Shown: positions 10,307-25,629 of the stretch, piece by piece
How positions within the stretch are numbered: the stretch's first letter is position 1
Layout of the letters: every line of letters starts with the position of its first letter
Assembly (NCBI GenBank): GCA_947165795.1
Contig: CAMVBP010000003.1
Coordinates: 1-27,299 of the forward strand
Direction: 5' to 3'
From: an uncultured Treponema sp.
Lineage (GTDB): Bacteria; Spirochaetota; Spirochaetia; Treponematales; Treponemataceae
Length of the DNA: 27,299 nucleotides
The notes under the pieces: model-generated
Seen by the model: the letters and a program-made list of their open reading frames with translations, nothing else
Database searches by the model: none
What the model was told of the DNA's origin: nothing
Made by a program: the position numbers and the translations under genes

Positions 10307-10308
10307 AC

Positions 10309-10324
10309 TTACGACCGTTAGTTA
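10309..10324. repeat. Dispersed palindrome copy 1 (TTACGACCGTTAGTTA)
   Basis: This copy matches TWACNANCGTTMGTTA at every defined position. It is intergenic and sits where the rsmG ribosome site would be expected. Confidence 0.7.
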
Positions 10325-10339
10325 GTTAATCCTACAGAT

Positions 10340-11263
10340 TTATTTATTGTCCAAATCCAACAGCAAATCTACAGAAAGATTTTTATCTGAATAATGTAGA
10401 ACTACAAGATTTCCTGTTTTTTCTGCAGTAAGGTTTCCTGTCTGAGTCATTCTATAAATAAATGAATTTTCATTTTTATAGTCCTGTGTGAGTGTTGGCT
10501 GAACATTATAAGTCAGACTGCTTCCTGTTGTACTTGTAGGCCTGAAAAGCATATAAAAAGTTTCTGTTCTTGGAAACTGATCAACATAATATTTTCTATC
10601 GGCAGTAAGAAGAAATGTTCCGTCTGCTTCCTGTTCGCTTATAAAATATGCTGAAAGCGAAGATAAAATATCGTAACCGTTTATTTTGAATCTTAAGATT
10701 TTTGGTTCACGGGATTTAAAATTTTGTGCGTCAGACTGCTTAACTTCCATCTCTGTTTTTTGATAAGCATCTGCATTGTTCTGTTGAGTTTTCAAATCAT
10801 TCAAACTATTCAGCATTTGCTGCAATAATAAATTTGTCTGAGAAGTTGTTGCATAATTCTGCACAGATGAAGTTGTATCTAAAGAAGATAAATCAGAAAA
10901 AAGTCCGGAATCATATAAACCCAGAATATCCGAAGCCGTTAAAATATTTGATGGATCTGTCTGCAGGGAATTTTTTGTATTTGTTGTTGTGTTTGCATTT
11001 GAAAGTACTGCTTCGTTGCTTTTATCTTCTGTATTATTTGTTTTTGCAGAATTTTGTTTTGCAGGAGAAACAGGTGCCGTTGGAACTGTTGGTGTATAAA
11101 AACTGCCGGAAGAAATTGATTGCATGGTCGGCATAGTTGGCATAGCAGGCATTTCCGGCATCTGAAGCATTTCCATGGATTGTGCAGATATTTGAGAACT
11201 AATTATAAAAATAAAAAATATTATACATATAGGTAAACGTAAATTCTTTTTAGAGATTTGCAA
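10340..11263 (-). CDS. Exported protein of unknown function with Met/Pro repeat
   Basis: I do not recognise this family. The chosen TTG start at 11263 has a perfect GGAGG six bases upstream (11270-11274), inside the end of the preceding gene, and gives a 307-residue protein. A signal peptide is clear (basic KKNLRLP, core ICIIFFIFIISS, cleavage near ISAQ). It is followed by a short tandem M-P repeat (MPEMPAMPTMPTM) and then a long Ser/Thr/Asn/Gln-rich region to about residue 190. The last 110 residues look folded and rich in beta strands (ILRFKINGYDILSSLSAYF, LLTADRKYYVDQFP, LVVLHYSDKNLSVDLLLDLD). No lipobox is present. It is probably periplasmic or surface-exposed. It overlaps the upstream metallopeptidase gene by 14 bases, so the two are probably translated together. 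Confidence 0.7.
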   Translation of the reverse strand: MQISKKNLRLPICIIFFIFIISSQISAQSMEMLQMPEMPAMPTMPTMQSISSGSFYTPTVPTAPVSPAKQNSAKTNNTEDKSNEAVLSNANTTTNTKNSLQTDPSNILTASDILGLYDSGLFSDLSSLDTTSSVQNYATTSQTNLLLQQMLNSLNDLKTQQNNADAYQKTEMEVKQSDAQNFKSREPKILRFKINGYDILSSLSAYFISEQEADGTFLLTADRKYYVDQFPRTETFYMLFRPTSTTGSSLTYNVQPTLTQDYKNENSFIYRMTQTGNLTAEKTGNLVVLHYSDKNLSVDLLLDLDNK

Positions 11264-12068
11264 GGCTTTCCTCCACATATTCAAGACGTTGTGTAAGCTG
11301 AGCAATAGATTTTTCCAGTCTCTGCTTTTCCTTTTCGAGTTTTGCTTTTGGATCATTTTCGCTGGTTCGGCCAGCCGCTGCTTTCTGCTTCATAAGTTCA
11401 CGCACTGTTGCCGGGCTTTTTCCACCTTCCAGAAAATCCTGCTGAACACTTGTCCTTTCATCCGGTTTTTTAATCGAAGCAACTACTTTCATATTTTCAA
11501 AACCAATTGCAGGATTTACATCGCAGGCACCAACCTTACGAATGTCTTTTGCAGAATTTCTTGGAAGACACAAAACTCTGTCTATATAATCATCATAGCG
11601 TATATCGGCCTCTTTGCACAAATCAAAAGCACGCGCAAGCTTTTGACCAAATTCCTTCATCAACTCGCCGTTTTTTTCCAGATAATTTGTTTTAATATCC
11701 TGGGTGAGTTCTTTTAATTCGCTGTTATTTTCCCAGCCGATTGAATAATATCCTTTTGTTTCTGCTACATGAATTAAGTCGCCAAATTTTGCCCAGAATT
11801 CCTGAGTATGAACGCGACATGCAGAACCATAAGTTGGATCTATTTTTTGTTTTTCGACTGTCATCAAATGATGAGTATATTCATGAACAGCAGTATAAAT
11901 CATTGAATTTTCAGATTTAAAATTCAAACTGTGAAGATAAATTTCGTGAGTATCCGGCTTATAAAATCCGTTCACTCTTTTACTTTCTTTTCCTGTCTGA
12001 ATTACCGTAAAATCTATATCGCTTGATTCTATATCTAAAAGTATTTCTTTGATGCGCTCATTTGTCAT
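11250..12068 (-). CDS. Putative zinc metallopeptidase with HExxH motif and C-terminal coiled coil
   Basis: This 272-residue protein has no signal peptide. An HExxH motif at H62-E63-H66 within MIYTAVHEYTHHLM is the zinc-binding signature of many gluzincin-like and SprT/ImmA-like peptidases. The third ligand is not certain; H87 (CRVHTQEFW) and later acidic residues are candidates. The final 32 residues form a strong heptad coiled coil (KAKLEKEKQRLEKSIAQL onward). The start is the ATG at 12068, which overlaps the rsmE stop (ATGA) and has AGGAG seven bases upstream. The open frame extends to 12155, but that part overlaps rsmE and is rejected. The substrate is unknown; its overlap with the exported protein gene suggests a shared role. 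Confidence 0.7.
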   Translation of the reverse strand: MTNERIKEILLDIESSDIDFTVIQTGKESKRVNGFYKPDTHEIYLHSLNFKSENSMIYTAVHEYTHHLMTVEKQKIDPTYGSACRVHTQEFWAKFGDLIHVAETKGYYSIGWENNSELKELTQDIKTNYLEKNGELMKEFGQKLARAFDLCKEADIRYDDYIDRVLCLPRNSAKDIRKVGACDVNPAIGFENMKVVASIKKPDERTSVQQDFLEGGKSPATVRELMKQKAAAGRTSENDPKAKLEKEKQRLEKSIAQLTQRLEYVEESLANL

Positions 12069-12829
12069 TTTAATGCTCCTATATGATTTAATATTATTGA
12101 ACCGGCAACTGTTGCAGCGGTTTCTGTCCTCATAATTCTGTTTCCCATTCCGCAAAGAATGAATCCATTATCTGAAAGAATTTTTCTTTCGTTATCCGTC
12201 CATCCCCGCTCACTTCCAATTGCTGCAGTTATGTATTCATTAGTTTCTGCTACATTTCCTGAAGTTACATATTTTTGCATTGCTTCATTCAAACTGCATT
12301 CCGGCGATTTATTATCTAAAGCAATTTTTTTATTGTCTAACGAACGTTCGTTAATTACATTCAAACAGTCCCGTAAATTTTTATGAATAAATATCTCCGG
12401 AACTTTTGTTGCTCCTGACTGAATTGTTCCGTCCAAAAGCATTTCAAAAACATTTTCTTTTTTTGCAAGGTTTGATTCGAGATAAGATTTTTCGCCAAGT
12501 TCAGTTCCTGTAAGATGAACTTCGCAAACTCCAAGCGCAGCAATATCCCGTAAAAGTCTTTTTAACTGAATTGGCCGTGGAAAACCAATAATCATTATTA
12601 GCGGGAAAAGTGGCCTTGGATCTTCTTCATTTGAAGGAATAAAAGAAAAATAAATTTCTTTTTCGGTAATCTTTGTAATTTTTGCATTTCCGGAATTCTT
12701 GTTTATAATTCCTGCAAAAAATTCATCGTCTTCTTTTTTATGAAGAATTTTTAAAATATGCTGTGCGCGTTCGTCTTTAACAGACAGCGGTTTGTTAATT
12801 TCAGATTCATAAAAAAGACAAATGTTCAT
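12065..12829 (-). CDS. rsmE: 16S rRNA (uracil1498-N3)-methyltransferase RsmE
   Basis: This 254-residue SPOUT-class methyltransferase modifies U1498 of 16S rRNA. The N-terminal PUA-like part (ERAQHILKILHKKEDDEFFAG) precedes the knotted C-terminal domain. The SAM-binding signatures are AAIGSERGWTDNERKIL and LCGMGNRIMRTETAATVA; the family norm is GPEGG, so the SER variant here is a small deviation. The segment NERSLDN in a variable loop is encoded by a copy of the dispersed palindrome (12338-12353). The gene lies nine bases behind the TPR gene and overlaps the metallopeptidase by four bases. Only a weak AAGAT precedes the ATG. Confidence 0.93.
   Translation of the reverse strand: MNICLFYESEINKPLSVKDERAQHILKILHKKEDDEFFAGIINKNSGNAKITKITEKEIYFSFIPSNEEDPRPLFPLIMIIGFPRPIQLKRLLRDIAALGVCEVHLTGTELGEKSYLESNLAKKENVFEMLLDGTIQSGATKVPEIFIHKNLRDCLNVINERSLDNKKIALDNKSPECSLNEAMQKYVTSGNVAETNEYITAAIGSERGWTDNERKILSDNGFILCGMGNRIMRTETAATVAGSIILNHIGALK
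12338..12353. repeat. Dispersed palindrome copy 2 (TAACGAACGTTCGTTA)
   Basis: This is a perfect 16-base palindrome inside rsmE, read in frame as N-E-R-S-L. Confidence 0.75.
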
Positions 12830-12837
12830 AATTTATC

Positions 12838-14205
12838 TTACCGGTTTGTAATTCTCTTGAGGATTTTTGTAAGCTGATCCTTTTCTATCAAATCTATTGG
12901 ACGACCGTCTATATATTTGTGAGCGCTTTCTGTAAAGCTTCCCATTGTTACACAATAACCTGCATCGCATTTTGTATCACGAACTTTAGAATGGAACTCA
13001 CGTATATTTATATCGCCGATAACATTTTGAGTTCTGTAAAAGCGGAAAAGCTGTTTTGCTTCCCATCTTGGATTTTCTACGTTGCAGACAATTTCTACAC
13101 ATTCAGAAGCAACCTGAACATCTTCAACCTTTACAAATGCATCCTTGTGGTAAATTGAAATAAAGTTTCGGCAGAGAGCCACAAAGTCGCTTGTACCGGA
13201 CATAAGATAAACCTGAAGGTTTTTGTTCTGATTTAATTCTGAATATCTTGCTACAAGGATATCCACATCTTTATAACCGGTTTTTGCCATTTGAATCTGT
13301 TTTAAGAAAGTAAGACCCTGAGCAATATCGTTCATTGCTATATAGTCATTTCCTAATCTGTATTTAATCTGCAGCATAAGCTGTTCTTCTACATTAGGAA
13401 GCTTTAAAGCAATTTCATAATCTTTAATGGCTTCTGCAAATTTCTTTACACGCTCATGCATTTTTCCTGCTTCAAGACAAGCCTGTGCTCCAAACTGTGG
13501 ATCCGGTCTTAAATGCATAAACACTTTTAAAGCCTTGTCGCCCATTCCAACTTCTGTCATTGCAACTGCCATTTGGAAAAGAAGTTCCTTATTATCAGGA
13601 TGTTCATCAAGTGCACGCTTTAAGAACGGAAGCGAGTCTTTATATTTCTGAGCCTTATATAAAGCGCCGCCAAGCAAAATGTAAATTTCAGAATTTTCAG
13701 GTTCAAGAGCTCTGGCTTTTTTAAAGCAATAAATTGCCTTGTCCATTACATTTGTTTTTAAGAAAGTCTGTCCCAAAAAATAATTACATTCAAAGCTTTC
13801 CGGATTCTTTTTTAGAGAAGTAATTAAAGATGTTGTAGCGTCTTCCAGCTTTTCCATGTTATAAGCTGCAACTCCCATACGAAGTGCAGCTTTAGCCATA
13901 TCAATTTCTACATGAACTGTTGAAATATCATAAAGGGTTTTATAAATTTGCCATGTTTTTTCCCAGTTTTTATCGGCGTAATATACTTCTCCCAAAGATT
14001 CCAATGCATTCACATTATGCGGATCATGCATGAGTTTCTTTTCGGCTTCTTTAATAATTGCACTTTTTCCTTTTCTCTGAAGCCTGTCCTTGCGTTCTTT
14101 TTCGGAACCAGGTTCTCCGTCTTTTTTCTTCAAACGGGTTACAGTCATCAAAATAATTATTAAAAGAGCAGCAGCAATTACACCAATTAATATTCCTATT
14201 ACCAT
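12838..14205 (-). CDS. Membrane-anchored TPR protein with Mrr-like C-terminal domain
   Basis: This is a 455-residue protein from an ATG at 14205 with AGG eight bases upstream; a TTG at 14211 is the alternative. One N-terminal membrane segment (VIGILIGVIAAALLIIILM) is followed by a basic stop-transfer stretch. Residues of about 50-320 are TPR repeats (for example SLGEVYYADKNWEKTWQIY, NYFLGQTFLKTNVMDKAIYC, IYILLGGALYKAQKYKDSL). The last 120 residues resemble the Mrr-type restriction-endonuclease fold, with AGYCVTMGSFTESAHKYIDG and PIDLIEKDQLTKIL matching its end. The usual D/QxK catalytic residues are not clear, so it may bind rather than cut nucleic acid. It lies between an aminotransferase and rsmE in the same direction. 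The TPR call is sure; the Mrr-like call is moderate. Confidence 0.8.
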   Translation of the reverse strand: MVIGILIGVIAAALLIIILMTVTRLKKKDGEPGSEKERKDRLQRKGKSAIIKEAEKKLMHDPHNVNALESLGEVYYADKNWEKTWQIYKTLYDISTVHVEIDMAKAALRMGVAAYNMEKLEDATTSLITSLKKNPESFECNYFLGQTFLKTNVMDKAIYCFKKARALEPENSEIYILLGGALYKAQKYKDSLPFLKRALDEHPDNKELLFQMAVAMTEVGMGDKALKVFMHLRPDPQFGAQACLEAGKMHERVKKFAEAIKDYEIALKLPNVEEQLMLQIKYRLGNDYIAMNDIAQGLTFLKQIQMAKTGYKDVDILVARYSELNQNKNLQVYLMSGTSDFVALCRNFISIYHKDAFVKVEDVQVASECVEIVCNVENPRWEAKQLFRFYRTQNVIGDINIREFHSKVRDTKCDAGYCVTMGSFTESAHKYIDGRPIDLIEKDQLTKILKRITNR

Positions 14206-14227
14206 GGACAAATCCTATTGAAAACCT

Positions 14228-15403
14228 TTAACGGTTTCCCATTTTTTCTTTTACCATTAATGAAATTCGTTCAAGAGCAATTTTTATTTTTTCAACCGAA
14301 GTTGCATAACAACATCTTATAAAGCCCTCGCCGGCATCGCCAAATACATTTCCCGGAACAACAGCAACACTGTATTTTTGAATAAGCTCCGTTGCAAATT
14401 CTTCACTGGTCATTCCTGTCGGACGAATGTCAGGGAACATATAGAAAGCGCCTTCCGGCTCTGTACAAGGCAGTCCCATTTCTATAAAGGCTTTATACAT
14501 TAAATTTCTTCTCTGCTGATAAGAAATCCGCATTTTTTCAACTTCATCCCAGCCGTTTCGTAAACCTTCAGCTGCAGCATACTGACTGAAAATCGGCGGA
14601 CAAATTGCATTGTATCCGTGAAGCTTGCAGCACTGAACAAGCAGATCGTGCGGAGCAGCCATATAACCAATTCGCCATCCTGTCATAGCAAAAGATTTTG
14701 AAAAACCGTTAAACACGATTGTGTAATCTTTCATTCCAGGGAACGAACCGATAGAAACATGTTTATGTCCGTCGTATAAAAGTTCACAATAAATTTCGTC
14801 ACTCAAACACCAGATCTGATGTTTTTTAACAACTTCAGCAATTTTTGCAAGCTCTTCTGCAGGAATAATTCTTCCAGTTGGATTACTTGGAGAACAGAAC
14901 ATTACTGCTTTTGTTTTTGAAGTACACACAGCTTCTATAGATTCAGCAGTTGGATAAAGTCCTGTCTTACTTGTATCAAGGTGAATTACTTTTGCATTGC
15001 ACAAATCTGCAAGCGGCTGATAGCTTACATAACAAGGTTCACAAACAATCAGCTCGTCACCAGGATTTAAAATTGCACGCAAAGCTAAATCCAAACCCTG
15101 AGACGCTCCTACTGTCGGTAAAATTTCTGTAGCCGGATCGTAAAAAAGATTATAACGTTCCAGATATTTTGTAATTTCCTGACGAAGCTCTATCAATCCC
15201 CAGTTTGAAGTATAAGAGGTATGACCTTTTTCCAAATGGTAAAAAGCTTCTTCACGAACCACCCATGGAGTTGGAAAATCCGGTTCTCCAACACCAAGCG
15301 AAATAATATCATCATGTCCTATGCAAAGTTCAAAAAACTTACGAATTCCAGAAGGTGGAATTTCCATCATTTTTGAACTGAATTTATCTGTTCTTGTATT
15401 CAT
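14228..15403 (-). CDS. PLP-dependent aminotransferase, class I fold
   Basis: This 391-residue aspartate-aminotransferase-fold enzyme is similar to PatA and aromatic or methionine aminotransferases. It transfers an amino group between an amino acid and a 2-oxo acid. The PLP lysine is K236 in NGFSKSFAMTGWRIGY. Other motifs are SLGVGEPDFPTP near the N-terminus, the PLP-phosphate region GASQGLDLALRAI, the SPSNPTGRI loop, LSDEIYCELLY, and the substrate-carboxylate arginine in EGFIRCCYA. The ATG overlaps the stop of the Lrp-type regulator (TAATG), so the regulator and enzyme are co-translated and the regulator probably senses a related amino acid. Exact amino-acid specificity cannot be told. Confidence 0.9.
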   Translation of the reverse strand: MNTRTDKFSSKMMEIPPSGIRKFFELCIGHDDIISLGVGEPDFPTPWVVREEAFYHLEKGHTSYTSNWGLIELRQEITKYLERYNLFYDPATEILPTVGASQGLDLALRAILNPGDELIVCEPCYVSYQPLADLCNAKVIHLDTSKTGLYPTAESIEAVCTSKTKAVMFCSPSNPTGRIIPAEELAKIAEVVKKHQIWCLSDEIYCELLYDGHKHVSIGSFPGMKDYTIVFNGFSKSFAMTGWRIGYMAAPHDLLVQCCKLHGYNAICPPIFSQYAAAEGLRNGWDEVEKMRISYQQRRNLMYKAFIEMGLPCTEPEGAFYMFPDIRPTGMTSEEFATELIQKYSVAVVPGNVFGDAGEGFIRCCYATSVEKIKIALERISLMVKEKMGNR

Positions 15404-15888
15404 TATGCCTGTACGCCTTCTCTTCTGTCGCGTTCGTCTTCTACATAAACAATGTCATTTTCTTTATATGTTTTTAAAACAAAATTTGTCTTAGTTGAGC
15501 GAACACCTTCGAGAGTTGAAAGTTTTTCACTTACAAAAAGTGCAACTTCCTTAAGATTATTTCCTTCTATGAGGACCTTTAAATCATAGCCACCGCTCAT
15601 TAAATAAAGCGATTTTACCTGTGGAAAACGGTATATTCTGTCTGCAATTGCATCAAAACCGTGTTCACGCTGTGGCTGAACCTGAATCTGAATTTCTGCT
15701 GTTACTTTGTCCTTCGCGACTTTATCTTTTTCCGGATTTACAATGGCGGCGTATTTTAAAATAATACCATCTTCTTCGAGCTGCTTAATAATTGCCTGAA
15801 CCTCTGTTTCAGACTTTTTTGTCATAGATGCTATATCTTTTGTAGAAAGACGAGCATTCTGTCGAAGTAATTCAAGAATTTCTTCCAT
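15403..15888 (-). CDS. Lrp/AsnC-family transcriptional regulator
   Basis: This 161-residue regulator binds DNA and usually responds to an amino acid. The N-terminal winged helix-turn-helix covers about residues 1-50 (LLRQNARLSTKDIASMTKK, EVQAIIKQLEEDGIILKY). The C-terminal RAM/AsnC ligand domain covers about 65-140, with SLYLMSGGYDLKVLIEG as its core and FVLKTY at the end. The first helix is shorter than in Lrp itself. The start is the ATG at 15888, with a perfect GGAGG six bases upstream; the open frame to 15924 is rejected for lack of a ribosome site. It is the first gene of the long minus-strand series, and a dyad at 15959-15974 in the divergent gap is a candidate autoregulatory site. Confidence 0.9.
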   Translation of the reverse strand: MEEILELLRQNARLSTKDIASMTKKSETEVQAIIKQLEEDGIILKYAAIVNPEKDKVAKDKVTAEIQIQVQPQREHGFDAIADRIYRFPQVKSLYLMSGGYDLKVLIEGNNLKEVALFVSEKLSTLEGVRSTKTNFVLKTYKENDIVYVEDERDRREGVQA

Positions 15889-15958
15889 TGCAATCCTCCA
15901 AAACGCACAAAAATTTATCCACATTTTACTATTTATACAAAAATTTTACAACGATTTT

Positions 15959-15974
15959 TAAAATGTGTATTTTA
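15959..15974. promoter_or_regulatory. Dyad TAAAATGTGTATTTTA between the Lrp-type gene and the small membrane protein gene
   Basis: Perfect 6-base arms (TAAAAT/ATTTTA) lie around GTGT in the divergent gap. AT-rich palindromes of this size are typical of Lrp/AsnC targets. It overlaps a possible -35 (TTTACA, 15971-15976) of the rightward gene, whose -10 may be TATAAA at 15992-15997. Confidence 0.45.
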
Positions 15975-16021
15975 CAAAGCCGCCTATTATGTATAAAATT
16001 AATAAAAAGGAAATGTAAAAA

Positions 16022-16324
16022 ATGCTGATTATTTGTATTAGTTTTGTAATGGCAATAATTTTTATTGCAGTTGGAATTTATTTTTTATCTTCAAAATTTC
16101 TTGATAAACTGAACGAAGCTTCTTCCGTAAAATCCGAAGAAGCGTTTAGAAAAAACAAATTCCGTGCAAAAGGCTGCGGATTAGTTTCTCTTGGGCTTGG
16201 ATTTCTTACTTTTGTCTGGGCACTAATTATAATTTCATTTCCTATGATTCTTAACGCGCTTGCTCTTGTTTACATGCTTTTTATTCTTACCGCTGTAATT
16301 GCGCTTATGATTATTATGAAATAA
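16022..16324 (+). CDS. Small membrane protein of unknown function
   Basis: This 100-residue hydrophobic protein has three predicted membrane helices: about 2-24 (IICISFVMAIIFIAVGIYFL), about 51-73 (CGLVSLGLGFLTFVWALIII) and about 76-98. A charged loop between the first two (SVKSEEAFRKNKFRAKG) is probably cytoplasmic. AAGGA lies about ten bases before the ATG. I do not recognise a family. It is divergent from the Lrp-type regulator across a shared 133-base gap and may be controlled by it. The next gene has its own promoter. Confidence 0.75.
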   Translation: MLIICISFVMAIIFIAVGIYFLSSKFLDKLNEASSVKSEEAFRKNKFRAKGCGLVSLGLGFLTFVWALIIISFPMILNALALVYMLFILTAVIALMIIMK

Positions 16325-16327
16325 TTT

Positions 16328-16356
16328 TTGCGGATAACTCCAAAGCGTGTTATAAT
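16328..16356 (+). promoter_or_regulatory. Probable promoter of the long-chain acyl-CoA synthetase
   Basis: A perfect TATAAT (16351-16356) is preceded at 17 bases by TTGCGG (16328-16333). A leader of about 40 bases with GGAG leads to the ATG at 16401. Confidence 0.6.
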
Positions 16357-16400
16357 TTCTTTAAAAGAGTTTAGTCAAATTTAATATTTGGAGCAGAAAA

Positions 16401-18188
16401 ATGGCACATAAAAGACCATTACCATGGGCTAGTCTGGAAGAATTCAGAGGAAAAATGTTTAAAGGAGAATGGCCAACCTTCCCTGAACTTCTTGAAATTC
16501 AAAATTTAAGATTTGGTGAAAGGCCCTGCCTTACAGATTTTGATGGCCCAGACGGTTCAAAAAGAACCCTTACATATTCACAAATGTATGAAAAGGTTCT
16601 TAAACTCGCGAACTTTCTTGTTTCAAGCGGCCTTAAAAAAGGAGATCATGTTGCAGTTGCAGGTAAAAACTCTCCTGAATGGGCAATTACCTACCTCGCA
16701 ATTTTAGTTGCAAGCGGAGTTGTAATTCCTATAGCAGATTCTTTGCACGATACAGAAACAGGAAACATATTAAAGGCTTCTACACCAAAATTTGCCTTTC
16801 TTGATGACGGAAAAATTCCTTATGTAAAAGAAAACTTCCCGGATATTATTGTTTATTCACTTAATCCTACAGTGCCTGAAAAATTTGTCTTAAATCTTTC
16901 TGCTTCTCCTGTTACTCCGGAAAATCAGAATGAAAAACCTGCAGAAGACGATCTTGCACTTATAATGTTTACTTCGGGAACCACAGGAAATCCTAAAGGC
17001 GTAATGCTTACACATAAAAATATAATTTCGGACGGTTACATTGCCCAAACAAACCTTTTGATTTTACCAACCGATGTTTTCTATGCGCTTTTACCGATCC
17101 ACCACGCCTACACCATGCAGGCTGCTTTTATCTGTCCTATTCAGGTTGGCGCAGAAATTGTTTTTGGAAAGAGCCTTGCCGTTACGCGCTTAATGAAAGA
17201 ACTCCGCGAAGGAAAAATTTCGATTATGCTCGGCGTTCCGCTTTTATATAACAAATTGCTTTCGGGAATCAATAAAGGAATCCGTTCAAAAGGAATTGTC
17301 GTTTACGGAATTCTTTCGTTCCTGAGGGGAATTTCTTTCCTTGTAAAAAAATTAACAGGAATAAATATTGGCCGCACACTTTTTGGAAAAGTTCTGGAGC
17401 AGGCAAATATCAGCACGCTGCGAGTTGCAATCTGCGGAGGCGGTCCTCTTGCAAAATCAGTTTTCAGACAGTATCAGGAAATGGGAATCGATTTTATTCA
17501 GGGTTACGGACTTACAGAAACTTCACCAATTATCGCGCTGAATCCTGTAGAAAAATTTAAGATTCAGTCTGTCGGCCGCGATTTTTCTCCTTACGAAGAA
17601 ATTAAAATCATTGAAAACAAAGAATTTTCTGATGTTGCAGAAAATGTACGCGGCGGTCAGAAAATTGGAGAAATCTGCGTAAAAGGTCCAATGGTTATGA
17701 AAGGCTATTACAACATGCCAAAAGAAACTGCCGAAATGTTTACAGAAGACGGCTTCTTAAAAACGGGCGATCTTGGCTGGATGGATAAAGATCATTACAT
17801 CATGCTTTGCGGCCGTGCAAAAAATCTTATTGTTACAAGCGGCGGAAAAAATGTTTATCCGGAAGAAATCGAAGATTCGTTCCAGCTTTATTACGATATT
17901 CAGCAGGTAACTGTACGCGGTTATCATCCGGAAGGCGATTCTACTTCCGAGGAAATTGAAGCGCTCATTTACGTTGCCGATGATTTGTATAAGACACTTG
18001 GCCTTGAACGAAAAGCAGATTCTGTTCAGGAAGAAATTGTAAAAGCAGTTAATGGAATTGTAAGTAAAGTTAATAAACGCCTGCAAAGCTATGAACAGAT
18101 TACAAAAATCAGTTTGCTTAAAGAGCCTCTGGAAATGACACCAAGCCAGAAAGTTAAACGAGATTTTGTAGCAAAAATTTATGAATAA
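16401..18188 (+). CDS. Long-chain acyl-CoA synthetase (FadD-like AMP ligase)
   Basis: This 595-residue ANL-superfamily ligase converts free fatty acid, ATP and CoA to acyl-CoA. Motifs are IMFTSGTTGNPKGVMLTHKN (near residue 190), LPIHHAYTMQ, QGYGLTETSP (about 367), FLKTGDLGWMD (about 452), GRAKNLIVTSGGKNVYPEEI (about 472), and the C-terminal lysine region TPSQKVKRD. The block order and the linker resemble bacterial and spirochaetal FadD-like proteins, and clearly differ from the ligase at 3877. It has its own promoter and GGAG ribosome site. Without beta-oxidation genes nearby, its role is probably recycling exogenous or membrane-derived fatty acids into lipids. Its stop overlaps the A-run of the terminator used by the convergent pyrKD gene. 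Confidence 0.92.
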   Translation: MAHKRPLPWASLEEFRGKMFKGEWPTFPELLEIQNLRFGERPCLTDFDGPDGSKRTLTYSQMYEKVLKLANFLVSSGLKKGDHVAVAGKNSPEWAITYLAILVASGVVIPIADSLHDTETGNILKASTPKFAFLDDGKIPYVKENFPDIIVYSLNPTVPEKFVLNLSASPVTPENQNEKPAEDDLALIMFTSGTTGNPKGVMLTHKNIISDGYIAQTNLLILPTDVFYALLPIHHAYTMQAAFICPIQVGAEIVFGKSLAVTRLMKELREGKISIMLGVPLLYNKLLSGINKGIRSKGIVVYGILSFLRGISFLVKKLTGINIGRTLFGKVLEQANISTLRVAICGGGPLAKSVFRQYQEMGIDFIQGYGLTETSPIIALNPVEKFKIQSVGRDFSPYEEIKIIENKEFSDVAENVRGGQKIGEICVKGPMVMKGYYNMPKETAEMFTEDGFLKTGDLGWMDKDHYIMLCGRAKNLIVTSGGKNVYPEEIEDSFQLYYDIQQVTVRGYHPEGDSTSEEIEALIYVADDLYKTLGLERKADSVQEEIVKAVNGIVSKVNKRLQSYEQITKISLLKEPLEMTPSQKVKRDFVAKIYE

Positions 18189-18212
18189 AAAAGAGGGGGA
18201 AGTCTCCCCCTC
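18187..18212 (-). terminator. Intrinsic terminator for pyrKD on the minus strand
   Basis: GAGGGGGA/TCCCCCTC (18193-18200 and 18205-18212) with a four-base loop is followed, on the minus strand, by six U (plus 18187-18192). On the plus strand no U-run follows, so it is not an ordinary terminator for the acyl-CoA synthetase. Confidence 0.75.
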
Positions 18213-18220
18213 GCTCCAGC

Positions 18221-18237
18221 CGTAACTAATCGTTACG
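18221..18237. repeat. CGTAAC-TAATC-GTTACG inverted repeat, possible diverged palindrome copy
   Basis: Six-base perfect arms surround five bases in the spacer between the convergent genes. It shares TAACTA and CGTTA with the dispersed palindrome but has a one-base length change. Confidence 0.4.
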
Positions 18238-18257
18238 TCTTCTGCTACCCCCTCTCC

Positions 18258-18280
18258 TAAGGGGAAGTTCCTTCCCCTTA
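18258..18280. repeat. Hairpin TAAGGGGAAG/CTTCCCCTTA at the end of pyrKD
   Basis: Ten-base perfect arms (18258-18267, 18271-18280) surround a 3-base loop, overlapping the pyrKD stop codon. There is no clear U-run, so it may protect mRNA ends or be part of a repeat element. Confidence 0.55.
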
Positions 18281-20140
18281 AAATCCCTTTGGCTGAATTA
18301 ATCCGCGCATCTCTTCAATTGTTTTATAACCTTTGCGCTTCATAAATGCTTTTAAGCCGTCAATAATTTCAATCATTGCATACGGGTTAGCAAAAGTTGC
18401 AGTTCCTACCTGAATAGCAGTTGCTCCAGCCATAATAAATTCAACGGCATCCTGCCAGGTTGCAATTCCACCAATTGCAATTACAGGAACCCTTTCATTT
18501 TCAGGTAATCTGTTAATTGCCTGAACAACTTCGTAAACAAGTCTTACCGCAATCGGACGAACTGCAGGTCCGCCAAAACCTGCTTTTACTTTTTCAAAAA
18601 CAGGAACGCCTCTTTCAATATCAATTGCAATTCCCTGGAACGAGTTATTCAAACTTATTCCGTCTGCACCGGCTTTAATACATGCAATTGCTACATCTTC
18701 AAGCTCTCGCGACTGTGGAGTAAGTTTTGCAATTAATGGTTTTTTAGTTACTGCACGAACGGCTTTTACAACCTGTTCTGCACCAGCGCAAGTCATACCA
18801 AAAGCAGCACCACCTGCAGAAACATTCGGGCAGGAAATATTCAATTCAATTACAGGAACGTCTGTTTTATCAAGAAGCTTAGCGCCTTCAACATAAGTTT
18901 CAAGCGAAGATCCGGAAAGGTTTGCAATTGCAACAGGCTTCATGGAAAGCATCATCGGAAGCTCGTGTTCAATAAAATGTGGAATTCCAGGATTCTGCAA
19001 ACCAATACTGTTCATTAATCCGCTTGGAGTTTCGTGAACACGAATTCCATCATTTCCTTCGCGAGGCTCAAGTGTAAGCCCTTTAGAAGAAATTCCTCCA
19101 AGTAAATTAACATTAAACACAGAAGTATATTCAGAACCAAATCCAAAAGTTCCGGAACTTCCAATTACAGGATTCTGGAATTTTACTCCGGAAATATTTA
19201 CGCTTAAATCAGGTTCTTCGTTTGCAGAAAGAGGTTCGCGTCTTGGCTGAACTTTAATTCCGCCGACTACGCTGTCCGGTTTATTAAATCTTGTGATTTT
19301 TTCAAAATCAAGAATATCGCCGTCAAAAACCGGACCTTCTTTACAGCAGCGTTTTTTGCCTTCTGTTGTATCAATTACACAGCCAAGACATACACCAACG
19401 CCGCATGCCATTCTGGCTTCCATACTAAGATAGCATTTAACGCCGGCAGCCTTACAAATTTTCTGAATGTAAGCAAGCATTGGAATTGGACCGCATGCAT
19501 AAACTGCATCATATTTTTCTGATTTTAAAGTTTCTTCTGTAAGTGCCGCAGGCAGCATTCCATGAACGCCAACACTTCCGTCGTCGGTTGTAATAACAAG
19601 CTTTTCAGGCTTTATGTATTCCAGAGCGTATGAACCGCTTTTGAATGAAGCATAAAAATCATAACTAACGTTAGTTAGTGTTTCTGCAAAGCCTGCAACA
19701 GGAGCAACACCTATTCCGCCGCCTGCAAGACATACTTTCTTTCCGCCGGCAGCAGGAAATGGAAATTTGTTTCCGCATGGTCCGAGTAAATTTATTTTAT
19801 CTCCAATTCGTAATGAGCATAATTCTTTTGTTCCGCTTCCTTTTACAAGAATTAAAAATGTTAATTCAATGTTGCCGTCAGATTTTTCTTCTGAATGAAA
19901 AATACTTATAGGGCGGCCAAGAAGAACATCTGAACGAACTGCATGAAGCATATAAAACTGTCCTGCAGCAGGTTCACAAATATCTGCATTTGAAGATTTA
20001 TCTATAATTACCTTTAAGCTAAAAACACTGTTTTCCGGAACGGCAGATTTTACAGCACTGCATTCACTTACTAAAGCTGAACAAAAAACCGGTTGCGGTA
20101 AAAAATGGCTTCCATATTCACTTTTACAACTATCAAACAT
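18278..20140 (-). CDS. pyrD: Fused dihydroorotate dehydrogenase: PyrK-type electron-transfer unit plus PyrD catalytic unit
   Basis: This 620-residue fusion oxidises dihydroorotate to orotate in pyrimidine synthesis and passes electrons to NAD. Residues 1-290 are the PyrK-type FAD/2Fe-2S unit: GRPISIF (75-81), AGGGIGVAP (139-147), and the iron-sulphur cysteines C246, C251, C254 and C265 or C266. Residues of about 312-615 are the PyrD class 1B barrel: FQNPVIGSSGTFGFG, LNISCPNVSAGG with catalytic C437, NNSFQGIAID, and AIGGIATWQDAVEFIMAGA. The two are normally separate genes. The start is the ATG at 20140 with GAGG five bases upstream; the longer frame from 20188 is rejected. Palindrome copy 3 falls in a variable loop (LTNVSY, 155-160). 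The gene is divergent from argA. Confidence 0.95.
   Translation of the reverse strand: MFDSCKSEYGSHFLPQPVFCSALVSECSAVKSAVPENSVFSLKVIIDKSSNADICEPAAGQFYMLHAVRSDVLLGRPISIFHSEEKSDGNIELTFLILVKGSGTKELCSLRIGDKINLLGPCGNKFPFPAAGGKKVCLAGGGIGVAPVAGFAETLTNVSYDFYASFKSGSYALEYIKPEKLVITTDDGSVGVHGMLPAALTEETLKSEKYDAVYACGPIPMLAYIQKICKAAGVKCYLSMEARMACGVGVCLGCVIDTTEGKKRCCKEGPVFDGDILDFEKITRFNKPDSVVGGIKVQPRREPLSANEEPDLSVNISGVKFQNPVIGSSGTFGFGSEYTSVFNVNLLGGISSKGLTLEPREGNDGIRVHETPSGLMNSIGLQNPGIPHFIEHELPMMLSMKPVAIANLSGSSLETYVEGAKLLDKTDVPVIELNISCPNVSAGGAAFGMTCAGAEQVVKAVRAVTKKPLIAKLTPQSRELEDVAIACIKAGADGISLNNSFQGIAIDIERGVPVFEKVKAGFGGPAVRPIAVRLVYEVVQAINRLPENERVPVIAIGGIATWQDAVEFIMAGATAIQVGTATFANPYAMIEIIDGLKAFMKRKGYKTIEEMRGLIQPKGF
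19662..19677. repeat. Dispersed palindrome copy 3 (TAACTAACGTTAGTTA)
   Basis: This is a perfect 16-base palindrome inside the PyrK part of the fused gene, read in a different phase from copies 2, 4 and 5. Confidence 0.75.
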
Positions 20141-20234
20141 AATTTCCTCGCTAATAAAATAACTAGTAAACCGCTTTTTTGCAAGCATTCACACTTTGTC
20201 ACGCAAGCACAGAAATCAGTTTTATACATAACCA

Positions 20235-20246
20235 CACGCTAGCGTG
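20235..20246. promoter_or_regulatory. Palindrome CACGCTAGCGTG upstream of the argA -35 box
   Basis: A perfect 12-base palindrome ends five bases before the argA -35. A second pair of arms, GCAAGCAC (20203-20210) and GTGCTTGC (20248-20255), encloses it and overlaps the -35. This may be an operator region shared by pyrKD and argA. Confidence 0.4.
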
Positions 20247-20251
20247 CGTGC

Positions 20252-20280
20252 TTGCTCCTGTTTCTATTGGATGATATAAT
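20252..20280 (+). promoter_or_regulatory. Extended -10 promoter of argA, probably leaderless
   Basis: TTGCTC (20252-20257), a 17-base spacer and TATAAT (20275-20280) preceded by TG (TGATATAAT). The -10 ends six bases before the ATG at 20287, so the predicted transcript starts at or beside the initiation codon. Confidence 0.7.
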
Positions 20281-20286
20281 TTTTTT

Positions 20287-21606
20287 ATGGATAATTCTTC
20301 TGTTCAAAAAGCACAAAGTATTCGCGATGTAATACGATATCTTCAGAAATTTAAGAATGCTCTCGTTGTAATTTATCTTGATGATAAAATAATCAACTCG
20401 CCTTTATTTTCTTCTCACATAAGAGATATTGCGCTTTTACATAAAGCTGGCTTAAAGGTTGTAATTATTCCGGGTGCTAAACAGAGAATTGATCAGGTTT
20501 TGCAGGATGCAAAAATTCAATGGAATTATAAGGACAATATTCGCGTAACAAATCAGGATGCAATGCCTCTTATAAAAATGGCTGCCTTTGACGTTTCAAA
20601 TATCGTTATGACAAATCTTGCCGCAAATAATATTACTGCAGTTATTGGAAACTGGGTCCGCTCAAGAGCAAAAGGCGTTCTTGAAGGCTTTGATTATGGA
20701 ACAGCCGGCGAAATTGAAAAACTTGAAGTAAACGCTATTCAAACAGTTTTGGAACATGGCTTCATTCCAATTTTCCCGTGCATCGGCTGGAACAGCACAG
20801 GACATCCTTACAATATTTCTTCAGCTGAATTATCTCAACAGGTTGCCATAAATCTTAAAGCAGACAAACTCTTTTTTGTAATGAAAGACGGCGTTATAGA
20901 CCGCAGCCGATATTCTATTCCAGATAATTTTGCACTTTCCGATTCCGGAGAAGTTCCTGCCATGAATCTTGAGGAAGTAGAAATTTTCCTTAAGAAAAAT
21001 CTTCATAAAAATGAGACTGTTGAAAAAATATTTGAACTTGCAAAAACTGCCTGCGACAAAGGCGTAACAAGAGTTCACATATTGAACGGCGAAATTGACG
21101 GTGTTCTTCCGTGCGAAATATTCAGCGATTTAGGTTCCGGAACAATGATCTATTCAAACGACTACGGAAAAATCCGAAGCATGGAAAGAACAGATATTCC
21201 GGCAGTTTTGTCTATTATGAATCCATTTATTCAAACCGGAAAGCTTCTTCCAAGAACAGAAAAACAGCTTGAAGAATCTCTGCAAGATTTTATTGTTTAT
21301 GAACTGGACGGCGGAGTACATGCCTGTGCGTGCCTGCATTACTACGATAAAAAGCAGGCAGAAATTTCTGCAGTTGCTGTAGAAGAAAATTTTTCTCACA
21401 TGGGAATTGGTCCAAAAATAATTGAACATCTTGTTTCAAAAGCAAAAAAAGAAAAAATAAAAACTGTTTTTATTATGACAACTCAGGCATCTGACTGGTT
21501 TGAAAAGCTTGGCTTTACAGAAGATAAGATTGAATCTATTCCGGAAGAAAGAAAAAAAATCTGGACTCCGCAGAGAAACTCTAAGGTATACAGAATCAAT
21601 TTTTAA
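20287..21606 (+). CDS. argA: N-acetylglutamate synthase (amino-acid N-acetyltransferase) ArgA
   Basis: This 439-residue enzyme carries out the first step of arginine synthesis, acetylating glutamate with acetyl-CoA. The N-terminal amino-acid-kinase-like domain (about 25-270) has LVVIYLDDKII, GLKVVIIPGAKQRIDQVL and GFIPIFPCIGWNSTGHPYNI. The C-terminal GNAT domain (about 290-430) has IRSMERTDIPAVLSIM, AEISAVAVEENFSHMGIGPK and IMTTQASDWFEKLGF. Length matches the classical ArgA. No ribosome site precedes the ATG (only an AT-run), and the promoter -10 box lies six bases before it, so the mRNA looks leaderless. It is the only arginine gene in the window and lies divergent to pyrKD, which also belongs to a carbamoyl-phosphate-consuming pathway family. 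Confidence 0.93.
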   Translation: MDNSSVQKAQSIRDVIRYLQKFKNALVVIYLDDKIINSPLFSSHIRDIALLHKAGLKVVIIPGAKQRIDQVLQDAKIQWNYKDNIRVTNQDAMPLIKMAAFDVSNIVMTNLAANNITAVIGNWVRSRAKGVLEGFDYGTAGEIEKLEVNAIQTVLEHGFIPIFPCIGWNSTGHPYNISSAELSQQVAINLKADKLFFVMKDGVIDRSRYSIPDNFALSDSGEVPAMNLEEVEIFLKKNLHKNETVEKIFELAKTACDKGVTRVHILNGEIDGVLPCEIFSDLGSGTMIYSNDYGKIRSMERTDIPAVLSIMNPFIQTGKLLPRTEKQLEESLQDFIVYELDGGVHACACLHYYDKKQAEISAVAVEENFSHMGIGPKIIEHLVSKAKKEKIKTVFIMTTQASDWFEKLGFTEDKIESIPEERKKIWTPQRNSKVYRINF

Positions 21607-21628
21607 ATAAATATTTAAAGGCAAAAAC

Positions 21629-22756
21629 ATGCATATTGAAAATTTCAGGCAAAGCAAAATTATCTGGTACGGACGATATTTAGATATTCAAAAAAATCAG
21701 CAGCCTTTTAAAGACTGTCCTCAAGGCGTTAGATTTTTTTCTTATTCAGCAAGCGGTTTTTGTTTTGTTCTGAAAGGTAAAAAAGCAGCCGTAAAAATTT
21801 TAAGTGATTCAAAAAATTGGGATGATACAACAAAAGGCGTAATTGGAATTTTCATAAGCAAAGGCAACAACATCGGCTGGAGCAGTTTAAATAATGAGCC
21901 GGATAAAAGAATTGTCCTTACAAAACCCGAAAATGAAATTAATTTATTTGAATCAGAAAAAGAAGAAACAATTACAATTCGTGTTTTAAAATTAAGCGAA
22001 GCAGCTTTTGGCTATTCGGCATTGAAAGAATTAAAAATTGAAGGAAAAATTATTCAGCCAGAAAATTCAGACAAAGAAAAATCTTTTGGAAAAATAGAGT
22101 TCATAGGAGACAGCATAACCTGCGGCTACGGAATTGAAGGCGGTGAAGGACAAACCTTTACAACACAACAGGAACGCGCAGATAAAGCGTATGCATTCCT
22201 CACGGCAAAAATGCTCAATGCCGAAATTCAAAACTGCTGCTGGAGCGGAATTGGAACAGTATCCAATTGGGTAGAACCGGCAGAATATAATCTGCCACAA
22301 GTTGGATGGTTAATAAATTCCCTCTGGCTTTATTCAGATAAAAGTGTTTCCGAACGGTTAAAAATCGAACCTGAATTCTGGGAAGAAAAAAAATTTTCTC
22401 CGGATATTGTTGTAATAAACATCGGAACAAACGATACAAGTTTTGTTCAAAAATACGAAGACAGAAGGCTGGAATATTTAGCTAACTATCGTTCGTTAAT
22501 TGAAGCCATTCATATGCGTTCGCCAAAAGCAAAAATATTCTGTTGCCTTGGAGCAATGGGTCAGGAGCTTTGCGATACAGTCAGCGAAGCAGTTTCTTCA
22601 TTCAAAAAAAATTTTCCGTCTGTAAAAATTAAAGCATTAAAGTTTCCGTTGCAGGACGAAGCAAAAGATGGAATTGGAACAGACTGGCATCCAAGTGCAA
22701 AAACACATCTTAAGATGGCAAAATTGCTTTCAAAAGAATTGCGAAAATTTATTTAA
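21629..22756 (+). CDS. SGNH/GDSL acetyl esterase, CE2-like
   Basis: This 375-residue two-domain esterase resembles carbohydrate esterase family 2, which removes acetyl groups from xylan or other glycans. The N-terminal half (1-145) is a beta-sandwich-like region (RFFSYSASGFCFVLKGKKAA). The SGNH domain starts with FIGDSITCGYG, nucleophile S162. It continues with WSGIGTV (block II), INIGTNDTSF (block III) and DWHPS with H354 and D352 (block V). No signal peptide is seen, so it may act on imported oligosaccharides inside the cell. AAAGG precedes the ATG by about eight bases. It follows argA by 22 bases. Palindrome copy 4 encodes NYRSL within the helix after block III. Confidence 0.85.
   Translation: MHIENFRQSKIIWYGRYLDIQKNQQPFKDCPQGVRFFSYSASGFCFVLKGKKAAVKILSDSKNWDDTTKGVIGIFISKGNNIGWSSLNNEPDKRIVLTKPENEINLFESEKEETITIRVLKLSEAAFGYSALKELKIEGKIIQPENSDKEKSFGKIEFIGDSITCGYGIEGGEGQTFTTQQERADKAYAFLTAKMLNAEIQNCCWSGIGTVSNWVEPAEYNLPQVGWLINSLWLYSDKSVSERLKIEPEFWEEKKFSPDIVVINIGTNDTSFVQKYEDRRLEYLANYRSLIEAIHMRSPKAKIFCCLGAMGQELCDTVSEAVSSFKKNFPSVKIKALKFPLQDEAKDGIGTDWHPSAKTHLKMAKLLSKELRKFI
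22483..22498. repeat. Dispersed palindrome copy 4 (TAACTATCGTTCGTTA)
   Basis: This is a near-palindrome inside the CE2-like esterase, read in frame as N-Y-R-S-L. Confidence 0.7.
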
Positions 22757-22808
22757 TTAATTCAAAAAATTTTGTCCGAAATTAAAACTTTTGATTCATA
22801 TTATATAT

Positions 22809-23717
22809 ATGAAAACCAAATCAAAAATTTTTATAAACTCATTTATTTATTTTTCTGCGGCTATTTTCTTCTCTTTTGTTTTTTTTACTTCATGTAAATT
22901 TAATGAAGTTATAGACGAAGAAGATAATTATGAAATTTATTTACCGGAATGGCCGCCTGAATTTTCAGAAGATTCTCCTGCACTGCCCCACCCGTCTTAT
23001 CCTGAGCTTTCCTGTTGGCTTATAAAAATTCAGGAAAAAAATGACTATAAGGAATATTATACTAACAATCGTTCGTTAGTAATCAGCACTGATAAAAATT
23101 CTCCTGTAGGATTTCTTGCCTGGCCTGTAACGATAAGTTCTAATAATTCAGAAAAAAAAGAAAACGTATTTTTTAAACCCGCAGGAAAAATTCTTCCGTT
23201 TAATAACAACGAAGGAAAAATTATCTTAAGCTGGCAGGAAGGTTTTCTTGCAGAAATTTTCTTTGAAGCCGCAAAATGTAATTTTCCCGTTGAAAATTTT
23301 AACTGGAACAAAGCTCAAAATACGGTAGATAAAAAATCAGGTTCGGCAGATACAATTTTTTATAATCCCTGGTTCTGCAATAAGTCCAGAATACTTGAAA
23401 ATATTTTACAGGGAAATTTCAGGGAAAGTTATTTAAATACAACAGGCTCTGTCTCATTAAGCCTCGAAGATGAAATTATAAAGGACAAAGTCAACGGCTA
23501 TTTAATTTCTTCATATATCCCGGAAAATCAATTTATTTACCGGGAAAAGAAAATTGTACTTTTAAAAAATCAAAAGGAACTTTTTATTTGCGAGCCAAAT
23601 AGCATTTCTTCCGGCAGTAGTTCATCCTCACAATTTGGAGTAATTTTTGAATGGAAAAGTAAAAAAAATATATCAGCAGAAATTGTTTATATGCCGATAT
23701 TTAAAGATGAACTATGA
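22809..23717 (+). CDS. Lipoprotein of unknown function
   Basis: I do not recognise this 302-residue protein. The start is taken as the ATG at 22809, since a TTG at 22791 would only add six residues. A basic start (KTKSK), a hydrophobic core (FIYFSAAIFFSFVFF) and the lipobox FTSC make it a predicted lipoprotein. The mature protein begins with an acidic/proline-rich linker (EEDNYEIYLPEWPPEFSED) and is otherwise mixed alpha/beta with many aromatic residues. There is no recognisable ribosome site; the ATG follows an AT-only stretch. Its end overlaps the next lipoprotein by four bases. Palindrome copy 5 encodes NNRSL at about residue 87. The two lipoproteins and the barrel protein after them look like one envelope unit. 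Confidence 0.75.
   Translation: MKTKSKIFINSFIYFSAAIFFSFVFFTSCKFNEVIDEEDNYEIYLPEWPPEFSEDSPALPHPSYPELSCWLIKIQEKNDYKEYYTNNRSLVISTDKNSPVGFLAWPVTISSNNSEKKENVFFKPAGKILPFNNNEGKIILSWQEGFLAEIFFEAAKCNFPVENFNWNKAQNTVDKKSGSADTIFYNPWFCNKSRILENILQGNFRESYLNTTGSVSLSLEDEIIKDKVNGYLISSYIPENQFIYREKKIVLLKNQKELFICEPNSISSGSSSSSQFGVIFEWKSKKNISAEIVYMPIFKDEL
23063..23078. repeat. Dispersed palindrome copy 5 (TAACAATCGTTCGTTA)
   Basis: This near-palindrome inside the first lipoprotein gene is read in frame as N-N-R-S-L. Flanking bases extend the dyad to CTAAC...GTTAG. Confidence 0.7.
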
Positions 23718-24957: not shown

Positions 24958-25629
24958 TTGAAGTCAAAAAAAACATTTCTTTGTATATTTTTTTTATCCT
25001 CAGTTATGATTTTTTTGCACTCGCAAAATTCTTCCGGCGAACGGTCCTTTGATTTATTTGCCGGTATGGATGCGGGCTTATATTTAAATCCGGAGCAGTC
25101 GAGTTTAAACAGTGCTCCTTCTCCTATTAATTTTGAATTGTCATTTGGCGCTGCAATTCCAAATTACACAATGTTTTCTTTTCAGCCTTCACTTACATTT
25201 TTTATGATGAACCATCTGTTATTTGAAGACCGCGCTTTGCCTGCCGAAATTGAAAACCGAACCAGCACAACATTAAATTTTTATCTTAATCTGCCGGCGG
25301 CCTTTTCACTTAAAATTCCAAAAAGTAAATTTCATGTTTCTCTCGGATTTGCTGCTTTAATTCGCTTTGCTTTTCTTGCAGCCGGAGTTCACTCCGACGA
25401 TGAAGGATTTTCCGGAACAGCAGGCGAAGACATAACATTAATTAATAAATGGTTCTGGAAAAATCTGCACTGGCTGTATGCAACTATGGAAGCAGACTGG
25501 CTTTACGAAGCTTCTCCAAAAATAAGTGCTGGCCCTTTTGTTTCTGTAAAACTACCGTTAGGTAGTTTAATGACAGAAAAATCTGTTCAGGGAATGATTT
25601 TTTCTGCCGGATTAAAAGTAAGTTTTTAA
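24958..25629 (+). CDS. Putative outer-membrane beta-barrel protein
   Basis: This 223-residue protein starts at a TTG (24958) with AAAGGAG seven bases upstream. A signal peptide is evident (KSKKTFLCIFFLSSVMIFLHS). The mature chain alternates short amphipathic strands with turns (FDLFAGMDAGLYL, INFELSFGAAIPNYTMFSF, STTLNFYLNLPAAFSLKI, FHVSLGFAALIRF, ISAGPFVSVKLPLG) and ends in GLKVSF, the terminal aromatic residue typical of barrels folded by BAM. It is too small for a porin and closer to an 8-strand barrel. It follows the lipoprotein pair by 56 bases. A hairpin (AAACTACC/GGTAGTTT, 25549-25568) within it may be a diverged palindrome copy. Confidence 0.7.
   Translation: MKSKKTFLCIFFLSSVMIFLHSQNSSGERSFDLFAGMDAGLYLNPEQSSLNSAPSPINFELSFGAAIPNYTMFSFQPSLTFFMMNHLLFEDRALPAEIENRTSTTLNFYLNLPAAFSLKIPKSKFHVSLGFAALIRFAFLAAGVHSDDEGFSGTAGEDITLINKWFWKNLHWLYATMEADWLYEASPKISAGPFVSVKLPLGSLMTEKSVQGMIFSAGLKVSF
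25549..25568. repeat. Inverted repeat AAACTACC-GTTA-GGTAGTTT, possible diverged palindrome copy
   Basis: Eight-base perfect arms surround GTTA inside the barrel protein gene. ACTACCGTTAGGTA resembles the dispersed palindrome with a few mismatches. Confidence 0.4.

Follow-up and report, generated by a model that had tools for sequence, protein, structure and literature searches.

Short palindromic chromosomal sites that are read by a position-sensing protein are known from several bacteria, as in the Noc/Noc-binding site (NBS) and ParB/parS systems. The subject here is a palindrome of this general kind, a 16-base motif found in 27,299 nucleotides of DNA from an uncultured Treponema sp. (assembly GCA_947165795.1, contig CAMVBP010000003.1, positions 1 to 27,299; this whole stretch is called the window). 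Its closest analogues are RefZ with the RefZ-binding motifs (RBMs), SlmA with the SlmA-binding sites (SBSs), and RacA with the ram sites. RefZ of Bacillus is a TetR-family protein whose nearly palindromic RBMs, two per chromosome arm and one near oriC, keep their positions throughout the genus, and SlmA, likewise of the TetR family, has dozens of position-biased sites spread over the chromosome except the terminus region ter (PMC6657595). SlmA of Vibrio cholerae also acts on a promoter (PMC5519180), and RacA acts in sporulation, where it tethers the chromosome to the pole (PMC6593407). The evidence set out below makes it likely, in our judgement, that the Treponema palindromes serve as binding sites by which the origin domain is marked, with one conserved TetR-family protein as the probable candidate binder and a landmark role for the two together.

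Each of the known systems resembles the Treponema sites in some respects and departs from them in others. RefZ shares the TetR fold (predicted for the Treponema candidate) and the nearly palindromic sites, and the candidate sites in Treponema are likewise concentrated near the origin; however, its RBMs number five and are tied to sporulation, whereas the Treponema sites are many more, lie packed within about 60 kb in one single-contig relative (G027) and bracket parS. The genus Treponema is not known to sporulate. SlmA, studied in E. coli and Vibrio, offers in its V. cholerae form a precedent for a dual role at a promoter and as a landmark, but the spread of SBSs over the chromosome except ter is not matched by the array in G027, which is tight around the origin; the sites of a second relative, G017, are more spread. 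As with ram in B. subtilis, the Treponema sites are dense near the origin and sparser elsewhere, although RacA acts in sporulation and the Treponema candidate is of the TetR type. Finally, in contrast to ParB/parS, the Treponema genomes have canonical parS separately from the motif, and in contrast to Noc/NBS no clear Noc-like ParB paralogue is present among the ParB_N matches that were read.

Clustering of the sites around the origin and parS

The window holds five exact matches to the 16-base motif, starting at positions 10309, 12338, 19662, 22483 and 23063. An earlier note on this DNA had placed them there and had called two of them perfect palindromes, and a pattern match agrees on both counts, the two being those at 12338 and 19662. 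With the two perfect palindromes counted on both strands, the five sites give seven rows, a number reached in none of 100 dinucleotide-preserving shuffles of the window (mean 0.00, largest 0). Allowing up to three mismatches raises the count to 22 rows, compared with 6.8 on average and at most 15 in the shuffles. Shuffles that preserve codons, carried out on the window only and with its intergenic DNA kept unchanged, also fall short: TAACNAACGTTNGTTA is observed four times at one mismatch or fewer (500 shuffles, mean 0.18, maximum 2) and five times at two or fewer (500 shuffles, mean 1.57, maximum 3). The observation made in the note is confirmed.

The rest of the analysis relies on the genomes of relatives. 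A search with the PyrKD protein brought 80 loci. The nearest of them, L001 of G001, matches the window colinearly from end to end, with 88.4% identity in an alignment of 27,173 bases. In relatives, which include Treponema of the gut and the rumen, the motif sites cluster as an array whose centre is the origin with parS. G001, with 3.0 Mb, contains 13 distinct exact sites for TAACNNNCGTTNGTTA, four of them in 11 kb orthologous to the window, and none for the reversed control pattern. On 400 kb of its contig C10, 14 of 25 sites at two mismatches or fewer lie within 27 kb of parS, and the GC skew switches sign at about 210 kb, which is the position of parS. By synteny the window sites are 15 to 28 kb from parS and the window ends about 11 kb before it. 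The confinement of the copies to the right two thirds of the window, noticed earlier, is explained by this synteny, since parS is closer to the right end than to the left.

The clearest picture comes from G027, a single contig of 2,738,066 bp with dnaA at coordinate 1 and gyrB and gyrA just before it (all three identified by eye). None of its six sites at one mismatch or fewer lies outside the stretch from about -30 to +52 kb relative to coordinate 0. At two mismatches or fewer, 28 sites are found genome-wide, and 17 of them are at most 60 kb from parS, where 1.2 would be expected (binomial P 1e-16); 380 kb of evenly spaced control stretches contain none. Enrichment is weaker but significant in G017 (9 of 41 sites within 60 kb of parS, 1.4 expected, P 1e-5), G008 (10 of 53 sites within 30 kb of parS, P 4e-8) and G007 (4 of 29 within 30 kb, P 0.002). 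T. parvum (G025) has four sites at two mismatches or fewer and none near its parS. Canonical parS clusters stand next to motif sites in G001, G002, G003, G004, G005, G007, G008 and G015. Across the order, 18 of the 291 genomes searched contain the exact 14-base palindrome; of these, G323 and G353 are the two that do not belong to the set used for the genus-wide scan. The low genome-wide count in G001 and the bias in position speak against a methylation site or a DNA-uptake signal, both of which the earlier note had entertained.

One intergenic cluster of six sites in G027 (C1:51412-52055; L151:11412-12055) lies behind a PadR/PspC-like operon (names by eye). Two of its sites resemble the arms of a terminator-like hairpin, and a unit of about 240 bp is present twice.

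Sites that bracket parS

Exact parS was found in 86 of 196 genomes, and 40 loci were available among the matches listed, with L119 (G006, scattered parS-like matches) excluded. Within 450 bp of the parS cluster, TAACNANCGNTNGTTA is present at 26 of the 40 loci at no more than 1/12 mismatches (permuted palindromes mean 0.75, maximum 19; up to 300 permutations in these controls) and at 27 of 40 at no more than 2/12 (permuted mean 5.2). These sites sit downstream of gyrA (by eye) and bracket the parS array. A chromosome-organising site, the first option that the earlier note had listed, is supported by this position and by the centring of the motif on the origin in relatives. The motif was considered as a variant of parS itself and rejected, as it fails a match to TGTTNCACGTGNAACA and canonical parS is present as separate sites beside it. 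In G016 (T. berlinense), C21:28824-29142 (L231) carries a diverged parS, TGTTTCTCATGAAACA, with a near-palindrome, TGACGAACATTCGTCA, 80 bp before it; parS and the motif may have changed together in this species.

A logo built from 78 sites in the origin regions retrieved for G001, G027, G017, G007 and G008 is 18 bp long (CTAACKAACGTTMGTTAG). Its outer C and G lay outside the search pattern, and beyond them there is only a preference for A and T, with information near zero past about 5 bp from this core. Paired sites have a preferred spacing that peaks at 26-27 bp. A small spreading palindromic element was among the earlier suggestions, and the many palindromic copies and some intergenic clusters (G027, G080) are in keeping with a small mobile or spreading repeat of the repetitive extragenic palindrome or miniature inverted-repeat transposable element type. 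Nevertheless, the lack of information outside the core, the clustering by distance to parS and the preferred pair spacing make such an element very improbable.

Constraint at the level of DNA

Of the 80 bases in the five window sites, 79 are the same in G001, against an identity of 71-85% in the 200 bp flanking the sites (Table 1). The four sites within genes have all 64 bases unchanged, with a joint probability of about 1e-5 given codon-position rates, and all 23 of their synonymous third positions are unchanged against a fraction of 0.71-0.76 outside the sites. For the pyrKD gene the aligned site could be obtained from 79 of the 80 loci. The four orthologues that retain all 16 bases read LTNVSY at this place; none of the remaining 75 reads TNV there, and about 44 (by eye) read LPxxSY. 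This suggests that, at this place in pyrKD, the DNA site has taken precedence over the sequence of the protein. Amino-acid conservation does not account for this site, and it was one of two outcomes that the earlier note had named as fatal to its motif; the other, a genome-wide count no higher than in codon-preserving shuffles, is not borne out by the window counts above. It is true that three of the four sites within genes share the reading N-x-R-S-L, as might be expected of chance combined with amino-acid constraint. Given the shuffles and the absence of the pyrKD site from 75 of 79 orthologues, none with the T-N-V of the window's clade, that explanation is scarcely credible.

Table 1. Palindrome sites in the window, with the one doubtful diverged site
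Feature	Position	Strand	Context and conservation
Site 1 CTTACGACCGTTAGTTAG	10308..10325	+	rsmG leader; exact match; contains CTTAC-N4-GTTAG, 1/10 operator mismatches; 15/16 bases same in G001; ~28 kb from parS by synteny
Site 2 CTAACGAACGTTCGTTAA	12337..12354	.	Perfect 16-bp palindrome within rsmE; 16/16 bases same in G001, flank 82%; synonymous third positions 6/6 unchanged
Site 3 ATAACTAACGTTAGTTAG	19661..19678	.	Perfect 16-bp palindrome within pyrKD; identical in 4/79 orthologues (L001, L002, L003, L005), other 75 with 4-9 mismatches of 12
Site 4 CTAACTATCGTTCGTTAA	22482..22499	+	Within CE2-like esterase gene; 16/16 bases same in G001, flank 82%
Site 5 CTAACAATCGTTCGTTAG	23062..23079	+	Within putative lipoprotein gene; 16/16 bases same in G001, flank 71%
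Doubtful diverged site AAAACTACCGTTAGGTAG	25548..25565	.	2/12 mismatches; degraded in G001

The gene assignments of the earlier note, four sites within genes and one in the rsmG leader, are largely backed by Pfam, which recognizes GidB/RsmG, Methyltrans_RNA (RsmE), the domains of a PyrK-PyrD fusion, and CE2_N with a GDSL esterase; the label of lipoprotein stands without a Pfam match for the gene product. Of the diverged relatives that had been proposed, those at 8742 (3/12 mismatches) and 18221 (6/12) are unsupported, and the one at 25549 is weak.

Two further observations can be added. The 16-mer TAACTATCGTTTGTTA occurs at one place within an ABC-transporter-like gene (by eye) in L087 (G005 C1:55947), L092 (G008 C1:391177) and L107 (G004 C126:177), and is also present in G001, G002 and G003; either conserved amino acids or a site of old origin may lie behind this recurrence. 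Positions 101-910, at the window's left end, encode the C-terminal part of FtsK, with the motor and gamma domains (Pfam).

A TetR-family gene with the same operator

Among 20 far sites sampled in G017, one lies 14 bp upstream of a gene for a TetR-family protein, here called tetR. In G001 the orthologue is 17 kb from parS and is likewise preceded by this site, again 14 bp upstream. Orthologues of tetR are present in 32 of 34 chosen genomes (one with a second, partial match); across the genus, 178 of 200 genomes have one. The two chosen genomes in which none was found, G024 and T. parvum G025, are both without a site at parS, and all 27 genomes with a site at the parS locus (two mismatches or fewer) carry tetR.

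The half-site pair ACTAAC-N4-GTTAGT is present in 44 of 49 tetR promoters, 40 of them at one mismatch or fewer, while other spacers reach at most 17 and 59 permuted half-sites average 0.25 and never exceed 2; one of the promoters (L315) had only 65 bp of upstream sequence. The 16-bp motif itself (no more than 2/12 mismatches) is found in 22 of the first 30 tetR promoters, where 419 permutations average 1.06. A gene-blind scan of the genus returned, among the matches listed, exact motif matches at the start of tetR in G070, G103, G132 and G135. In 8 of 30 genomes, those of the T. bryantii group, the promoter has two sites 26 bp apart.

The same operator is enriched around the origin. CTAAC-N4-GTTAG (no more than 1/10 mismatches) occurs 9 times in 98 kb around the origin of G027 and not once in 380 kb elsewhere, 13 times in 60 kb around parS in G001, at 18 of the 40 parS loci (against an average of 1.0 and at most 6 for permuted half-sites), and inside each of the five window sites. 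Half-site spacers of 0, 4 and 8 stand out in G001 (5, 13 and 10 occurrences, others at most 1), as do 0 and 4 in G027 (4 and 9, others at most 2). The 16-bp motif can be read as two operators that overlap with a 4-bp shift (TAAC-KAAC-GTTM-GTTA), and spacers of 0, 4 and 8 are those expected from such an overlap.

The earlier note's idea of a widespread regulator is partly right, inasmuch as the same half-site pair precedes a TetR-family gene. Taken further, the sites could be a dispersed transcription-factor regulon whose bias toward the origin reflects the location of the controlled genes. The operator is of the TetR type; one window site starts 2 bp past the start codon of rsmG (open reading frame 9620-10306, minus strand); and besides the tetR site, three of the 20 far G017 sites (L289, L292 and L308) are intergenic and at most 190 bp upstream of an open reading frame for a non-regulator. 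On the other hand, four of the five window sites are within genes, many sites in other genomes lie within genes or at gene 3' ends, and sites bracket parS downstream of gyrA. We regard a regulon of this kind as improbable.

The candidate protein and other binders considered

The candidate has 220 amino acids and a TetR_N domain, and both the domain and the predicted fold are those of TetR/AcrR regulators. Its predicted structure (mean predicted local distance difference test score, pLDDT, 89.8) is TetR-like, and structure searches match it to TetR/AcrR regulators, FasR, EthR and MtrR, and also to FadR and DesT. The segment K40-A41-S42-L43-Y44-N45 is invariant in 27 aligned sequences, as are N188, P189, L196 and F197 near the C terminus (alignment A1, which omits L309-L311, L313-L315 and L332). 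K40-N45 corresponds in position to the recognition helix of TetR proteins. The NCBIfam model for RefZ scores 19.4 bits in one of five orthologues, far below its cut-off of 180, and that for SlmA 20.9 and 21.3 bits in two of five, also far below its cut-off of 120. RefZ does not appear among the matches listed in the fold searches, which has no bearing on membership.

Other binders were considered. For a Noc-like ParB paralogue, the PF02195 matches beyond ParB consist of a short ParB_N protein (no helix-turn-helix by eye) and weaker matches. Seven loci of the latter were read (L209-L215): integrase-like genes lie next to four of them, the surroundings of two others seem mobile by eye, and the protein at L209 (G001) does not look like ParB along its length. 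A third gene in the parAB operon was likewise rejected, none being seen in the two loci examined.

The short ParB_N protein deserves mention in its own right. An open reading frame of 135-179 amino acids with ParB_N is present in all nine Treponema genomes searched (L132-L140), and Pfam finds only ParB_N in the one sequence submitted. By eye, the proteins of L134, L137, L138 and L139 have no helix-turn-helix and an amphipathic-looking C-terminal helix. It may be a CTPase that is bound to the membrane and partners ParB.

Weighing the TetR protein as reader of the array

A number of results weigh against the TetR protein as reader of an origin landmark. At the parS loci, one permuted palindrome reached 29 of 40 at two mismatches or fewer, against the 27 observed, and 11 of the 13 loci without a site at this threshold belong to genomes that carry tetR (the other two have no tetR). 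The G017 sites at two mismatches or fewer are mostly far from the origin, and since the reversed control gives 26 against 41, these far sites lie where chance matches are expected. At the tetR promoters, one permutation, NAACTANC, ties with the 16-bp motif at 22 of the first 30; the motif is found in only 8 of 19 further promoters, where three of the 419 permutations score higher (17, 11 and 9) and one ties. The N4 operator is missing from 5 of the 49 promoters, and its form was defined after inspecting them, because the promoters of several clades fit the N4 half-sites better than the 16-bp form. The presence of tetR and of the exact motif are not significantly associated across genomes (68/180 against 4/20, Fisher P 0.14), and the exact motif is found in 4 of the 20 listed genomes without tetR (G064, G091, G101 and G124, possibly through assembly gaps; two more genomes without tetR are unlisted). 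G054, G058, G019 and G023 have sites at parS and a tetR promoter without the 16-bp site. Finally, of 18 tetR loci read by eye, 6 (G001, G010, G067, G038, G054 and G016) have next to tetR a gene for a probable AMP-binding acyl-CoA ligase, and the nearest solved folds of the protein include lipid regulators, among them FasR, FadR and DesT.

Several of these results, namely the ligase neighbour, the structural matches, the lack of association and the four genomes with sites at parS alone, would fit a TetR protein that works as an ordinary regulator of (lipid) metabolism through an operator of its own, the origin array being read by a different protein with a similar half-site. Against such a separation stand the half-site, the N4 spacer and the 26-bp pair spacing that the origin array and the tetR promoters have in common, as well as the four exact gene-blind matches at the start of tetR. 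We therefore consider two separate readers unlikely, though well short of negligible, and prefer the conserved TetR protein as the candidate reader of both.

A possible landmark at the Treponema origin

Under the preferred reading, the TetR protein would bind its own promoter and the origin array alike. Two dimers would probably occupy each 16-bp site. The bound protein would then build a nucleoprotein patch around parS, and this patch could serve as a positional landmark that couples the position of the origin to segregation or to the choice of division site. The role in segregation or division is suggested by analogy with RefZ, SlmA and RacA.

A bolder formulation, to which we give nearly even chances and which we put forward tentatively, is that Treponema has an accessory centromere system not previously described. 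In it, a TetR protein would bind overlapping double operators, which flank the ParB array as phased pairs and extend across some 100 kb at the origin. The bound protein would add another nucleoprotein layer to the partition complex, controlling ParB spreading, origin anchoring or septum placement, and selection on the sites would be strong enough to change the proteins encoded by the genes that they cross. Among the entries listed by literature searches, none describes an origin-domain or nucleoid-occlusion factor in Treponema.

If the TetR protein is indeed the reader, it would be a further member of its family that reads chromosome position, besides SlmA and RefZ. To our knowledge, it would be the first TetR-family case in which the sites physically bracket parS. 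With a candidate protein, an operator and a map of sites in hand, the positioning of the origin, its segregation and the placement of the septum in spirochaetes become directly testable.

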